DNA of 40,866 nt from Caldithrix sp. (GTDB lineage Bacteria > Zhuqueibacterota > Zhuqueibacteria > Oceanimicrobiales > Oceanimicrobiaceae), in the NCBI GenBank assembly GCA_004356825.1, contig SMXC01000108.1:1-40866 (forward strand), given 5' to 3'. The translations under genes and the position numbers were made by a program. Positions 3,493 to 40,866 of the stretch are shown piece by piece (position 1 is the stretch's first letter; each line of letters starts with the position of its first letter). The notes below the pieces were generated by a model that was given only the letters and a program-made list of their open reading frames with translations, was not told where the DNA came from and did no database searches.

Positions 3493-4773
3493 TTAAACTT
3501 TTAAATTCTTCTGCACATCTTTATCCCGATTCACCCGCCAGATTTTGGAATCCAAATAATAATGCTGCATGGCAAAACCCAGGATGAAGGCGGCGAAAAC
3601 CCGTTCGCCTAATCTTAAAGATGCCGGATCTTTAATGCCCGCCATCATCCCGATTGAATTTAGCAGCACTGTATCCAGTTCCAAGCCACTGACTGATTTG
3701 AGCCAATCAATCCAGGGACCTTTGTAAAAGCCAAACGTGAACACCAGGCCAACTAAAGCATAAGTTGTAAAGTTTTTAAACAAGGCTTTCACCCATCTAA
3801 ATTCCCTGTCAGTTTTCGATTTATATTTATTCTGTGCGAAGGAATAGACAATGCAGTGATATTGAATGTTATGGCCTATTGTCACCAGCGGCACGATAAA
3901 AACGGCCATAATCGGGTGGCTAAAAGCAACAAAATGCAGCGGAATGATCGAACACATATAGAGTAGTTTGCTGCCGTTAAGGGTTGAACCCGCTTTCCAG
4001 AGCTTGACTTGAAAGCCGATATAAAGCAGAATAATTGCCAGGTAAATTGTCCAGGCCAACGGGTGCAGAATGGAGCTGATAGTCAGATTTGCAAAGATTG
4101 GCGCCTGCAGCCCTAAAGGTGGAAAGCCCGGCGTGTTTTTGTAAAAAGAGCTGGTCAAAAACATCAGCAGCGGCATGTACAAAGTCAAATTAAAGAACCA
4201 ATAATCGAGCTTGTTGGTAAGCGCTTCATTATCGTTTGCTTTGCGTTTGTAGAGCGCAAAAAAGCCCCAGTGTTGACGCACAACATGGTAGTAAGCCCAA
4301 AGTCGAAAGAAGACAAAAAAGAGGATGCCGCCCACTGCCAACGTTTCTAGGGGCGTTGTGAAGCCAAGGTTTGGTGTCAAAGCGCCAACAAAGTAGGGCA
4401 ACAAAATGGCCGCCGGTCCGACAAAAAACCAGATGAACGAGAAGCGAAGTTCTCGTCCGCGCACCCGCCACTCGTCAGGGTCGAAAAGTGTCCGTCCGAG
4501 GGTCGCCCAAACATGGGGTGCATCCAGAATGATGGCCCAACTTATGACCACCAGCAACTCAAGGTTCAAAGAGATCTTAATGCCGCCGAGCTGCAAAGTT
4601 AAAAAGGCGTCTCGAAGCGGATCATTCAAAGCATAAATTGCATAAAAAATGATGCCGACATAAAGCCAGCCGGCGAGCGCTGAGCCGATGTAAAAAAGCA
4701 GATCTTTCCGGCGACTCAGAATCCAGTTAAATTTGATTCGTCCGGTTAGAGGTTGGGAAATGGCAGCTTGCAT
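3493..4773 (-). CDS. Polytopic membrane protein with conserved-looking histidine clusters, function unknown
   Basis: This 426-residue protein has about nine to ten predicted membrane segments. Histidines cluster at segment ends: DAPHVWAT (about 95-102), YYHVVRQHWGFF (about 173-184), HPLAW, HFVAFSHPIM, GHNIQYHCIVY (about 307-317) and MQHYYLDSKIW near the C-terminus. Several paired histidines in membrane helices resemble the general pattern of membrane di-iron oxygenases or desaturases and Brp/Blh-type carotene-cleaving enzymes, but I cannot match a defined signature. The start has no obvious ribosome site. It stands alone, flanked on both sides by repeat elements. The histidines are seen directly; the metalloenzyme idea is inference. 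Confidence 0.75.
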   Translation of the reverse strand: MQAAISQPLTGRIKFNWILSRRKDLLFYIGSALAGWLYVGIIFYAIYALNDPLRDAFLTLQLGGIKISLNLELLVVISWAIILDAPHVWATLGRTLFDPDEWRVRGRELRFSFIWFFVGPAAILLPYFVGALTPNLGFTTPLETLAVGGILFFVFFRLWAYYHVVRQHWGFFALYKRKANDNEALTNKLDYWFFNLTLYMPLLMFLTSSFYKNTPGFPPLGLQAPIFANLTISSILHPLAWTIYLAIILLYIGFQVKLWKAGSTLNGSKLLYMCSIIPLHFVAFSHPIMAVFIVPLVTIGHNIQYHCIVYSFAQNKYKSKTDREFRWVKALFKNFTTYALVGLVFTFGFYKGPWIDWLKSVSGLELDTVLLNSIGMMAGIKDPASLRLGERVFAAFILGFAMQHYYLDSKIWRVNRDKDVQKNLKV

Positions 4774-4811
4774 TTTCTAAATTAATTTCGCTTGATTTAT
4801 TTCAAGGTTGA

Positions 4812-4945
4812 AATAGGCGTTTGGCCTTTGACTTTTAATTTTTTTTGCAAGTTACGTCCTGAATATCGAATCACCTGTTGAGTGATTTACAATAACCATT
4901 TTAATTGAATTTTATTAGCTGATAGCCAATCACTCAAAGTTAATG
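4812..4945. repeat. Dispersed intergenic repeat, copy A (related to 22905-23060)
   Basis: The segment begins with a GGCGTTTGGCCTTTGACTTT-like tract. It then has a small palindrome around ATCACCTGTTGAGTGAT and ends with agccaatcactcaaagtta. The same order of motifs appears about 18 kb away at 22905-23060, so both are copies of one non-coding repeat. Function unknown. Confidence 0.55.
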
Positions 4946-5002
4946 ATTTGGTAAAAAAATGCAAGAACTTTGGTGGGGACGAATAATGGACTTAAATTTT
5001 GG

Positions 5003-5089
5003 CGTCTTGCGAGCGTTTCTCAGCGCGGCAATCTTTTTGGTCAAGGCAGTCTTGAGATTGCTTCGGCGGGAACGCCTCGCAAAGACGTC
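5003..5089. repeat. Palindromic repeat, family 1 copy 1
   Basis: GTCTTGCGAGCG at the left end is mirrored by CTCGCAAAGACG at the right. In between, gcggcaatct is mirrored by agattgcttcg, giving a near-continuous hairpin. Two other copies are at 9847-9934 and 27683-27792. All three share the tttgcgagcg, gcaatct, agattgctt and caaagacg blocks. Confidence 0.75.
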
Positions 5090-5113
5090 TGACACAATCG
5101 TTAAGAGTTTGGA

Positions 5114-6169
5114 TTAACCTCGCACTTTTCGAAAAATACTCGACAATCGATCCAACCCATAAACGAGTGGCCGATTTGCAATGTGGGCGACATCCCTGAG
5201 CATTTCTTTCGGATAGGAAGTCACTTTCTCCGTTCCTTCTTTAACTTTATCTATCGTTTTGCTAAATAGATGTGCGACCGGATTGACCGCCAGCATGACC
5301 GTATCGACCGTCTTTTCTTTGCTCATCCTGAGCAGTTCAACCGTCATTTTTTCCATGATGTCCGAGGTGATGAATTTGGTCGTTTTAAGAATAAACTTTG
5401 AGGTAGGATTGAGGTCTTTGTCAGATTCTATAGTGACCAATTTGCAGTAGTTTTCCGTAAGAAGAGAAATGCGAGTCAGGAGCGCTGCGTTCACAAAACC
5501 GTCGGCCAGTGAGCCGAAGATCCTATCCGCAAAAGGCACGCTTTTAATACTCTCCGTGGCAAACTTTGAAAACAACTCCTGGGTAGCATACTCAACGCCT
5601 TCAGAGCCACCGATGGCCATCGACAGATAAACCTTTTTGGCAATGGCCCATAAATCCTTGTTTGAAACCCGGCCGTGATATAAAACGAACAGTTCTTTAA
5701 CCAGATTAACACTCGAAGATAAAATGAGAATGGCATCCAGAAAACCATTTTGCGAGATACTGGAGCTGTAAAAAAGCCGCAGGACGTACCTCTTTCTAAT
5801 CTGCTCACTCTCTTTTTCCAGCACCTCAATTGTTTTTTGATACCCTTCTTCGGTTTCCTCAATGTTTGAAAAATCAAATCCAGACTCTATCAGAAAAGGG
5901 TTGGTTTTAAATTTATTAAGACGATTCTGAATGATTTCCGGGGCTCTATTTTTATCTTTGCTCGGTGCGTAGTTTTTGGGGATTTTGATAATTTTGTAAA
6001 TCGGAATGATAATGCTATAAATGATCAAGCCGAGGAGCAGGACCAAAGTCGCGTACCCAAAGGCCGGGTGCAGAGCCCGGGTCAGGAGATAGAGTTCTAA
6101 CAACTCCCGGAAAATAATGTAAATGAGAAAAAGTGAAAAGAAATAAAAGAATCGACTGAGGATTTTCAT
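5114..6169 (-). CDS. DUF697 (YcjF-like) membrane protein
   Basis: This 351-residue protein has two membrane segments at the N-terminus (about residues 5-23 and 38-58). A charged region rich in Glu/Lys and likely helical (about 70-140) follows. The next domain, around NGFLDAILILSSSVNLVKEL, matches the DUF697/YcjF pattern of a short hydrophobic helix, then an (I/L)R(E/K)(L/I)-like stretch. DUF697 proteins are inner-membrane proteins, often linked to small GTPases or stress responses, of unknown activity. It is the last gene of a four-gene minus-strand run, 52 bases after the dehydrogenase. The family call comes from memory of the motif and is moderate. Confidence 0.65.
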   Translation of the reverse strand: MKILSRFFYFFSLFLIYIIFRELLELYLLTRALHPAFGYATLVLLLGLIIYSIIIPIYKIIKIPKNYAPSKDKNRAPEIIQNRLNKFKTNPFLIESGFDFSNIEETEEGYQKTIEVLEKESEQIRKRYVLRLFYSSSISQNGFLDAILILSSSVNLVKELFVLYHGRVSNKDLWAIAKKVYLSMAIGGSEGVEYATQELFSKFATESIKSVPFADRIFGSLADGFVNAALLTRISLLTENYCKLVTIESDKDLNPTSKFILKTTKFITSDIMEKMTVELLRMSKEKTVDTVMLAVNPVAHLFSKTIDKVKEGTEKVTSYPKEMLRDVAHIANRPLVYGLDRLSSIFRKVRG

Positions 6170-38101: not shown

Positions 38102-38162
38102 ACATAACAACCAAGCTCAGCCAGCGCCCGCGGGTACCGCGTCGGCTGCAGCGCTTTTATAC
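38102..38162 (-). other. Probable attC recombination site after the third cassette gene
   Basis: Read on the minus strand, the site begins GTATAAA (38162-38156), which contains the stop codon of the gene at 38157-38657, and ends GTTATGT (38108-38102). The inner arms AAGC..AGCC..CGC and GCG..GGCT..GCTT pair with bulges. The right end (TTTATAC on plus) departs from the AAC consensus, so this is a probable but not perfect site. Confidence 0.6.
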
Positions 38163-38657
38163 AGCCCCATTTTCTTTGCGGAACCAAGGAAAAAGAGATA
38201 TGCCCCAACCTAACGCTAATCCTGCCAACATTGTTGGAATACAGAAAAAAGGGATAAAAATGAATCCAATAACCGCCGTTGATGACATATGTCCGCCTCC
38301 ATATAGCGGATACCAAATACTCACGTGGCCATAAATCATCAGTGCAAGAATGCCTAGGATTCCCCCAACCAATAAGCAATAAACTCGTCGTGCAGTAAGA
38401 GTTCGAGATACTCTAAAAAGAATGCCGATAAGTATTGCAAAGGGGATAAAGCCGAATAATGCAATCACAAAGAGGTTATGCCCAGGAGCAAACTGCCGTA
38501 CTGCTATGTCTTTTATGGCGTCGAGTGGAGATATGCCTCCGATAACGACTTGTAAGAAAAAAATTATTAACGCTGGTGTAATGAATGCGACTACAGTTGG
38601 AACAAGCAATGTTAGAAGAACCGATTGTCGTTTAGCTATACGCAAGAAGTGGCTCAT
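38157..38657 (-). CDS. Four-helix membrane protein, cassette gene, function unknown
   Basis: This 166-residue protein has four predicted membrane segments (about 13-37, 61-81, 90-110 and 122-148) and a Gly-rich loop YPLYGGGHMSSTAV. No family is recognised. The stop codon falls inside the adjacent probable attC, which is typical of integron cassette genes. There is no visible ribosome site, another frequent feature of such genes. Codon use and composition are not obviously different by eye. Confidence 0.7.
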   Translation of the reverse strand: MSHFLRIAKRQSVLLTLLVPTVVAFITPALIIFFLQVVIGGISPLDAIKDIAVRQFAPGHNLFVIALFGFIPFAILIGILFRVSRTLTARRVYCLLVGGILGILALMIYGHVSIWYPLYGGGHMSSTAVIGFIFIPFFCIPTMLAGLALGWGISLFPWFRKENGAV

Positions 38658-38693: not shown

Positions 38694-38748
38694 CCCCAAA
38701 CACTGACTGCCGCAGCATGGCTAAATTGCCCACAAAGTTCAGTTCCAC
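38694..38748 (-). other. Degenerate attC candidate between cassette genes
   Basis: Read on the minus strand, GTGGAAC at one end and GTTTGGG at the other flank arms AACTGAACT and AGTCAGTGTT that pair with small bulges. Neither core fits the consensus fully. The placement, overlapping the stop of the gene to its right, is what a cassette end would show. Confidence 0.3.
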
Positions 38749-39923
38749 TTAACGACAACAACGACGCCCTCAAACTGTCCACATTGCAGGAAAATTGTTC
38801 GTGCATCATTTGTCCATCGTGAAACCTTGACTTTTACAGTTCGATCTTTAAACTCGTGTTCTCTCAATATATCAACGAACCGGGGTTCTCCTAATTGCGA
38901 TATAAGAACTTGCTTCAGTTTGTCGTAAAGACCGCCGGTCAATACAAAAATCTTCTTACGAGCAAGTTCCCTTTCTCTTAAGTCTTTTATATCCAAAGAC
39001 CACTCGTAGTCGGCTACTTTGACAATAGAATCTGATGAGCTATATTGGTAAGTGGCTGTAAATTTGAGATGTTCCGGAGCGGGTCTTTGGAAAACAATCC
39101 GGGGCAAAATCACTTTGCCAAATAGTTCCTTTGCCATCTCTGGCGACATGGTTCCCTGCATTTGGGAGCCGAGTCGTTGCTCTTGACGAATGACGTGAGA
39201 AATATGTGGTTGCTCAAATAGATAAGGGCCATTTAATTGCAACTCTTCAAGCTCCGACAATATGTCGATTTCGAGTTCTGCTATATCTTCCTCGTTACCT
39301 TTTTCCGGGAGGCGTGCTAAAATCTTATTAATCTTCGCTGCTAATTTGGTCGCGTTATCCAGATTCATATTAAAATGAATTGGGGCCTGCCCTGAATCTA
39401 TCTGTTCATTGATTATTGGTGTGCTTTGGACTTTGCTGTCAATTAGAATAGTAAGCTTTTTACCAATATAGTCGCCGGTGATCTTGCTGAACTTCCACTT
39501 CCCGGCGCGAGAGAATATTACATAAACAAAATATGATCCTTGATACTTATTAAATTTTGCTTCAGCTCGTTCTACATCACTCAGATTAAGTAAAGTGTTT
39601 CTCAATACCCTGATAGGCTTGCCTGCTGTTGTTATATCAATGGTTTCAGTATCGTCAACCAGCGATTGTTCGATTACGCAGAACTGAACGAAACTTGCAC
39701 CTTCATTTTGTAAGACTTGGTTGGCAAGGGCTCGATCAAAAAAAGCACATATTATAAAAATAATAATAATAAATCGAAGCTTAAATCCATTGAGTTCTAC
39801 TGTCTGGCAAGAATTGTCCATCGCTAAACAGGCGGATGGGTTTCCTATGCTACGCTTCTGTTTATTCACTATGAAACCTTTCAGACCCTTTTGAGCAGCA
39901 AACGGTTTCGGTTGCTCGAACAT
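38739..39923 (-). CDS. Cassette gene: membrane-anchored or exported protein with SecD P1-head-like domain
   Basis: This 394-residue protein has a hydrophobic segment at about residues 49-66 (FIIIIFIICAFFDRALA), which may be a signal peptide if translation starts at the internal ATG 39821. The part around KFSKITGDYIGKKLTILIDS, then STPIINEQIDSGQAPI, and NLDNATKLAAKIN matches the P1 head domain of SecD/SecDF. The C-terminal 170 residues are unrecognised. SecD itself is far larger with six membrane helices, so this is not a translocase subunit. The gene begins 29 bases from the attC at 39952, consistent with a cassette. Start site uncertain. Confidence 0.75.
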   Translation of the reverse strand: MFEQPKPFAAQKGLKGFIVNKQKRSIGNPSACLAMDNSCQTVELNGFKLRFIIIIFIICAFFDRALANQVLQNEGASFVQFCVIEQSLVDDTETIDITTAGKPIRVLRNTLLNLSDVERAEAKFNKYQGSYFVYVIFSRAGKWKFSKITGDYIGKKLTILIDSKVQSTPIINEQIDSGQAPIHFNMNLDNATKLAAKINKILARLPEKGNEEDIAELEIDILSELEELQLNGPYLFEQPHISHVIRQEQRLGSQMQGTMSPEMAKELFGKVILPRIVFQRPAPEHLKFTATYQYSSSDSIVKVADYEWSLDIKDLRERELARKKIFVLTGGLYDKLKQVLISQLGEPRFVDILREHEFKDRTVKVKVSRWTNDARTIFLQCGQFEGVVVVVKWN

Positions 39924-39951: not shown

Positions 39952-40026
39952 GCTTAACGACTTGAGCTCACTGGCGCTGGAGGGAGCGAAGCGAGCGGAA
40001 GCGTCCAGTGCAGCGATTTGTTAGGC
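39952..40026 (-). other. attC recombination site (complete, canonical cores)
   Basis: On the plus strand the site reads GCTTAAC (39952-39958) to GTTAGGC (40020-40026). Both fit RYYYAAC/GTTRRRY without mismatch. The arm CACTGG-CGCT (39969-39978) pairs with AGCG-T-CCAGTG (40000-40010), leaving T40004 unpaired. That is the extrahelical T expected on the folded strand of attC sites. The orientation matches minus-strand cassette genes. Confidence 0.88.
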
Positions 40027-40060: not shown

Positions 40061-40573
40061 TCAAGATACCCAAGCTCTCCAGCTCGACCGCACCAAGAGC
40101 GCTAGTCCTAGGCAGCTCGTGACATAGGCGAGATTGGCAGTCGCGCGGACGCGCCACGGAAAGCGACCGAGGTCCATTCGGGCAAGACGACCTGCCACGA
40201 CGCCAATGCCCAAGAAGAAGAACCAAGGAGTGAAGAGGAACGCCAAAGAGCCACGAACGAGAGTAGTGACGAGATCATGGACTGCCCCACATACGACAAA
40301 GGTGACGACAAGAGCGATTGCTGGCGGAAACGCGCGTTTTAACGGAGAGAATACGTAGCGGCCCAGGGTATACCCGAACACGGGATTCCAGTACTGCCAG
40401 AACACAGCGAAGGACCTTGCACCAAGGGACCTCTCCAGCATATTGCGGAGACCTCCGCGCGCTCCAGCAGGTACACCATTGCGTCTCAGGATGTACTTCC
40501 CCATGGTCAGCACGCGACGCCTCGGCTGGAACTCCGATTCACTGCTCACAGTTTCACTACTTCGAGTCGCCAT
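40061..40573 (-). CDS. Cassette gene: small MBOAT-like membrane protein
   Basis: This 170-residue protein has a basic N-terminus (FQPRRRVLTMGKYILRR) and about three membrane segments. The stretch FAVFWQYWNPVFGYTLGRYV, then VTFVVCGAVHDL, resembles the FW..W.P......TF..SG..H region at the core of membrane-bound O-acyltransferases and wax synthases, with His in VHDL as the candidate catalytic residue. It is far shorter than full MBOAT enzymes (400 or more), so it may be a mini-version or only a C-terminal part. The ATG lies six bases after an attC core and has no ribosome site. The stop is 35 bases from the next attC. Confidence 0.75.
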   Translation of the reverse strand: MATRSSETVSSESEFQPRRRVLTMGKYILRRNGVPAGARGGLRNMLERSLGARSFAVFWQYWNPVFGYTLGRYVFSPLKRAFPPAIALVVTFVVCGAVHDLVTTLVRGSLAFLFTPWFFFLGIGVVAGRLARMDLGRFPWRVRATANLAYVTSCLGLALLVRSSWRAWVS

Positions 40574-40577
40574 GGCG

Positions 40578-40637
40578 GCCTAACGTTTGAGTTAAATTGC
40601 GGTGCGTTTTTTGCGCCGTCAATTTTGAACGATTTGT
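40578..40637 (-). other. attC recombination site interrupted by a group II intron
   Basis: On the plus strand it reads GCCTAAC (40578-40584), then AAATTG-CGG (40594-40602), which pairs with CCG-T-CAATTT (40616-40625), T40619 being the unpaired base. It then reads TTGAACGATTTGT, where GTTAGGC or similar is expected. Instead the sequence turns into GTGTGCCCGG, the start of the intron. The order CTAACG-TTGAG ... TTGAACGA-TTGT is like the reverse strand of the known aadA attC. Confidence 0.85.
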
Positions 40638-40866
40638 GTGTGCCCGGCATGGCACGTGTATATTTTGAATATCGAAATATACACAGATTATCCAAAGGGT
40701 GCAAGTCCCTTATGGGCGAGTTGGCGAAGCCCATTAGTAAGCTGCAAGGGTGTTCCGGGTGACCGGAAATCTGAAGGAAGCAGGACTACAAGAGTCTGTA
40801 CGGACGAACAGGAACTGCATAAGAGGCATAGCTTTGTGGGTGAGCAACCACATCTTTGTAAAGCCC
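40638..40866 (+). mobile_element. 5' end of a group II intron (class C-attC type), continues past the window
   Basis: The first bases GTGTG fit the GUGYG 5' end of group II introns; 40636 is a second possible first base. Domain I features follow: GGGTGCAAGTCCC (40697-40709), a stem-rich region with CCGGGTGACCGG, and CTGAAGGAAGC (40771-40781). These are typical of bacterial group II introns. The reverse transcriptase/maturase gene and the 3' end are outside the window. The intron lies opposite to the cassette genes and starts inside an attC core, the known site preference of class C-attC introns. Confidence 0.85.

Follow-up and report, generated by a model that had tools for sequence, protein, structure and literature searches.

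The contig SMXC01000108.1 (C230), whose complete 40,866 nucleotides form the window analysed here, ends in a stretch where one strand of an integron attC site appears to run directly into a group II intron. Group IIC-attC introns are described as entering attC sites on the bottom strand, at TTGT/T and in the orientation opposite to the cassettes, and have been treated as one specific lineage (PMC7923331). The locus raises the questions of what kind of intron this is, how it came to lie in an attC and whether it belongs to that lineage. Our analyses make it very probable that it is a class C intron, of a lineage common to KSB1 and Bacteroidota and distinct from the classical IIC-attC introns, that reverse-spliced into the attC bottom strand of a chromosomal KSB1 cassette array.

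The 5′ exon (positions 40578 to 40637, + strand) is the bottom-strand arm of an attC. It begins with the R″ box GCCTAAC (40578–40584), forms a stem-loop with a bulged T and ends in GATTTGT, reading GCCTAACGTTTGAGTTAAATTGCGG...CCGTCAATTTTGAACGATTTGT with its final base at 40637. Folded as single-stranded DNA, the arm gave z = −3.49, with 0 of 200 shuffles equally good. Compared with 2464 random TTGT sites from the same sequences, its R″-plus-stem score had a p of 0.035; by the stem alone, this single site is only moderately improbable. The same test gave p = 0.002 and p < 0.0005 for the sites on contigs C136 and C261 of the source genome, and 0.0004 and 0.0008 for those in the KSB1 genomes G006 and G011 (contig C23), respectively. 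Several other KSB1 sites, where the hairpin is interrupted or short, scored weakly, and such weak-scoring sites (G060, G005 and G012) were judged by eye. The arm closes with the IBS1 TTGT (40634–40637, + strand), which is the same in all three 5′ junctions of the source genome and agrees with the published consensus TTGT/T (PMC7923331). Its layout is closely similar to that of the class 1 integron introns used as positive controls, which sit after CTAACGCTTGAGTTAAGCC...GGCTTGAACGAATTGT; the aadA-type attC invaded there reads CTAACGCTTGAGTTAA...TTGAACGAATTGT/ and the window site CTAACGTTTGAGTTAA...TTGAACGATTTGT/.

At this junction the 5′ exon CGATTTGT gives way to the intron sequence GTGTGCCCGGCATGG, which is also the ribozyme 5′ end of terminator-inserting class C introns (GsI-IIC and O. 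iheyensis type), with the first intron base at 40638. The intron (40638–40866, + strand) starts with GTGTGCCCGGC, reads GTGTGCCC at this start and continues up to the contig end, which cuts it in the 5′ part of domain I. The Rfam model RF02001 (group-II-D1D4-3) matched 40753–40866 (+ strand) with 76.3 bits (1.2e-13; gathering score 32), the match being interrupted on its 3′ side by the contig end. Thus, GTGTG at 40638 and the RF02001 match provide the GUGYG 5′ end and the domain I of class IIC. The window copy covers just 229 nt of the intron; its reverse transcriptase (RT), domain V and 3′ junction would lie beyond the assembled sequence, and the 3′ flank is absent from the assembly.

The invaded site adjoins a cassette gene of 170 aa (40061–40573, − strand), a weak MBOAT-like fragment (Pfam PF03062, 22.4 bits, under the cut-off of 27). 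The attC of this gene is an intact one downstream of it, one cassette from the invaded site (39952–40026, bottom strand shown on +), which runs from GCTTAAC to GTTAGGC, ends in GATTTGTTAGGC and has R boxes and a stem with bulges; its fold was no better than that of shuffles (z = −0.15). The next gene (38739–39923, − strand) encodes 394 aa with a SecDF P1 head domain (PF22599, 62.9 bits), and a gene without an assigned family (38157–38657, − strand) follows in the same orientation. After the latter, at ∼38105–38165, a degenerate attC-like hairpin can be read by eye. With the intact and the invaded attC and cassettes in one orientation, the region has the at least two attC sites of an integron or CALIN. 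According to the preliminary description, an attC is interrupted in its R core by a group II intron, which lies on the bottom strand, beside a stem with an unpaired T and opposite to the cassette genes; it had also asked for domain I of the intron to be folded with a covariance model. All of this agrees with our results: the intron is on the + strand and the three genes are on the − strand, the T is bulged in the fold and the model recognised domain I.

Further integron components were found elsewhere in the source genome. An IntI is encoded on contig C142, separate from that of the window array (374 bits with TIGR02249, whose cut-off is 265; IntI4 was its best match in the PDB), and contig C347 holds a further attC pair. 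Strict R″–R′ scans of the window recovered attC1 at most, with a chance background of 0 to 2 per shuffle in one scan, and were not taken as evidence by themselves. A looser scan gave 17 chance matches per 190,770 shuffled bases, so that a single match counts only with gene context. Scans of contigs C9, C18, C25, C77, C94, C115, C159, C195 and C336 revealed no convincing attC, and genome-wide matches to the pattern GATTTGTTAGGC were not above the reversed control, making them unusable as an attC count.

The source genome (4.36 Mb in 358 contigs, an estimated 94.7% complete) contains three intron-bearing places found by search: the window, C136 and C261. The C136 copy is 99% identical over 182 nt and reaches the contig end; the C261 copy is 97% identical over 110 nt, followed by an internal deletion, and lies near a contig end. 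Each follows an attC arm and TTGT, and the arm differs on each of the three contigs while the end point is the same. In short-read assemblies, contigs are expected to break at near-identical repeats of this kind. When the 3′ half of the G006 intron was used as a query against the genome, it identified C347, which ends within an intron and shows an RT C terminus, domains V and VI and the 3′ junction ...GCCTACTCGAT/TAGAAACC (its 3′ end is also given as ...GCCGCCTACTCGAT/TAGAAACC). Here the intron end is joined to TAGAAAC, the rest of the attC core. Before the intron, on the other strand, lie a CPBP-type membrane protein gene, an attC (4571–4682) and a hydrolase gene (4740–6065), both genes being named by eye. 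A domain V match on C206 was rejected as the missing 3′ half: it is a different, diverged remnant (L021, 6900–6979; RF00029, 42.4 bits) of another family than the window intron, with no RT nearby.

Complete junctions were available in related genomes. G006, of the same family as the window genome, carries a complete ORF-less intron with domain V that is 97% identical over the 5′ region, and its junctions are TTTTGT/intron/TAGACATT. Those of G005 are ATAGT/.../TAGACGTT, and those of G011 are GTTGT/.../TAGACGAA and TTTTGT/.../TAGTACAA; in all three genomes these 3′ exons go with 5′ exons ending in GT. One copy in G057 deviates (TTTAT/.../TATACC). The remainder of the attC core that had been predicted at the intron 3′ end is therefore present in other copies (C347, G006, G005 and G011), and domains V and VI with the 3′ end were seen in C347 and G006; the window's own copy stops short of its 3′ junction. 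In the Bacteroidota copies the 3′ remainder is TAGC, TACC, TGAA or TATG, in which attC identity is not evident. The intron locus of G006 is identical to JAJDAE010000127.1 from candidate division KSB1 bacterium OFTM177, and G011 is KSB1 isolate Bin_298. In the NCBI taxonomy, the KSB1 name leads to Candidatus Zhuqueibacterota in the FCB group; through these relatives, rather than a marker tree, the expectation of an FCB-group or candidate-phylum host held.

The source genome contigs yielded C-terminal RT pieces but no assembled group II RT core. A genome of the same class, G060, whose intron 5′ end is 97% identical to that of the window, encodes an RT with YADD that is open to the contig end. 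This RT scored over the TIGR04416 cut-off and, against solved structures, gave 360 bits with the GsI-IIC RT, 339 with a second group II RT, 137 with LtrA and 111 with another maturase; by these scores it is a class C RT. The class C RT anticipated in the preliminary description was thus found in relatives (G060 and G005) and not in the window copy. An RT on C222 was rejected as unrelated to the window intron, since the class C query matched it with only 70 bits. This short RT (L004, 1282–2310), distantly similar to the query and preceded by AAC-rich sequence, is possibly part of a diversity-generating element. The nearest relatives of the KSB1 RTs are those of Bacteroidota plasmids, at 60–65% identity, compared to about 45% for Firmicutes and Proteobacteria. 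In unrooted RT trees of 40, 36 and 27 sequences, the KSB1 and Bacteroidota RTs formed one clade (100/100 support in two of the analyses). A second group (100/99 in one analysis) comprised the class 1 integron introns and those of Thiodiazotropha, Scalindua, Pelagicoccus and the KSB1 genomes G001, G002, G036 and G053.

The target is read in a way that fits class IIC, with a hairpin in place of IBS2 and a short EBS1–IBS1 pairing. The proposed EBS1 is ACAT at 40850–40853 (+ strand), of which ACA would pair with the TGT of IBS1. With the EBS1 loops aligned, CACATC is seen in most of the KSB1 and Bacteroidota introns, together with 5′ exons that end in TGT; the two from Adhaeribacter show CACCTC instead, and their exons end in GGT. 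This one compensatory event (ACC/GGT) supports the predicted ACA/TGT pairing. The data show the site, its strand, the junctions of sister copies, the RT class of relatives and the lineage; how the intron was inserted and spliced, and what it did to the cassettes, is inferred. A retrotransposing class C intron would reverse-splice into a folded attC on its bottom strand, at the point in the core where TTGT meets T. Its choice of target would need just the attC hairpin and a short pairing, EBS1 ACA with IBS1 TGT, and the T as IBS3. The intron would then come between a cassette gene and the greater part of the attC that belongs to it, like S.ma.I2 in class 1 integrons.

The features shared with the group IIC-attC introns (S.ma.I2 type; controls L205–L207) are extensive: the attC bottom strand, insertion at TTGT/T opposite to the cassettes, the 3′ exon TAGAC and a class C RT. 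The window intron might thus be a copy of the classical lineage brought to KSB1 by horizontal transfer, and KSB1 does host such introns. G001, of the same genus as the window genome, carries a classical-lineage class C intron in an attC (L168, about 740–870), which starts with GTACGCCC and reads GTACGCCCGGCATGGGCATGAAC. However, the window type begins with GTGTG and not GTACG, is set apart from group IIC-attC by an extra hairpin after GGCATGG, and has another host phylum and an RT of another clade, with 65% identity to Bacteroidota RTs versus about 44% to proteobacterial ones. Approximately unbiased (AU) tests rejected a single clade of the KSB1/Bacteroidota RTs with the class 1 integron introns (p = 2.7e-5) and with a wider classical set (p = 5e-4, two data sets); when the clade was forced with all sampled attC-type introns, the rejection was weaker (p = 0.029). 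The transfer of a classical intron is thus unlikely, and the preliminary description's assignment to the known class C-attC lineage was not supported.

Two other explanations concern the site itself. Class C introns often insert after terminators (PMC4424553), as do some of the loci found here by pattern (e.g., L070, L126 and L134), and the hairpins could be terminators or generic palindromes hit by an ordinary class C intron. The terminator-inserting introns (GsI-IIC and O. iheyensis type) share the class C RT, but their target is a terminator and not an attC. The KSB1 sites lack a GC stem running straight into a T run, most show bulges, a far-end AAC core box and a 3′ exon with TAG, and the same arrays hold intact attCs, which makes this explanation very improbable. 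Fusion of a foreign intron sequence to the contig by assembly or binning is slightly less credible still. The metagenome-assembled genome is fragmented, with contigs that break off within the intron or close to it, but such ends are expected inside a repeat, three contigs carry three different attC arms with an identical end point, and near-identical introns occupy attC sites in several genomes of the same class. A class C intron of the KSB1/Bacteroidota lineage inserted into an attC is thus the preferred reading. KSB1 hosts both attC-targeting lineages, the classical one being separate from that of the window. The lineage of the window intron is separate from that of the class 1 attC introns, and attC targeting seems to have arisen or persisted in two branches; on the unrooted RT tree, two gains or repeated losses of the trait are possible. 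If another lineage shares this target, class C introns would have acquired attC hairpins as a target more than once, or the trait would be older than assumed, and comparing the two lineages makes it testable which intron features are required for reading attC.

GTDB species genomes, scanned for exact matches to TTGTGTGTGCCCGGCATG, contained 97 such stretches, which belong to Bacteroidota, Verrucomicrobiota, Planctomycetota, Nitrospirota, Pseudomonadota, Chloroflexota, Zhuqueibacterota and others. Many are in attC-like hairpins, others follow terminators and a few occur by chance. Hence, attC-inserted class C introns are common outside Proteobacteria, and the window copy is not itself rare. In a literature search of partial coverage, no mention of KSB1 group II introns was found. 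A second attC-targeting lineage would make the integron arrays of uncultured phyla regular intron habitats, and it extends the setting of the proposed intron role in cassette formation beyond Proteobacteria. An attC of the KSB1 genome G012 (L057, 2940–3042) and a Scalindua attC upstream of an intron (L092) look alike in sequence over their length, which suggests cassette exchange between phyla. On plasmids of Bacteroidota (Persicobacter, Adhaeribacter and Chryseobacterium), the class C introns have the nearest RTs, the same EBS1 loop and attC-like 5′ exon hairpins but, unlike the KSB1 copies, a 3′ remainder that is not clearly attC. On four Bacteroidota plasmid loci (L064, L065, L193 and L063), long AAC...GT hairpins resembling attC lie upstream of introns, and one Tenacibaculum plasmid bears such hairpins twice; these may be unrecognised cassette arrays.

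A shorter intron form was present in G011 and G057, two genera. In this ∼450-nt form, full-length position 132 is joined to 1627, removing the EBS1 loop, domains II–III and the RT fingers. Its copies (L055, 2803–3253, 5500–5760 and 7070–7276; L059, 2518–2969) lie at four different attC-like sites and are 90–94% identical, a spread possibly due to movement in trans or to cassette shuffling. We regard it as more likely than not that two or more separate class C lineages target attC, one of them common to KSB1 and Bacteroidota, and that in the KSB1 family f5 the 450-nt form of the second lineage, without EBS1, domains II–III and most of the RT, spread to several different attC sites by moving in trans, as short non-autonomous elements do. 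Other internal deletions, with different breakpoints and domain I fused to RT sequence, occur in C261 (L006/L023) and G005 (L051); such recurrent deletions perhaps arise by template switching. Between the intron copies of L055 (3273–6927, − strand), the KSB1 genes encode a HigB-like toxin, an HTH antitoxin, PIN, SDR and OmdA proteins, a toxin–antitoxin-rich set like those of other integron arrays.
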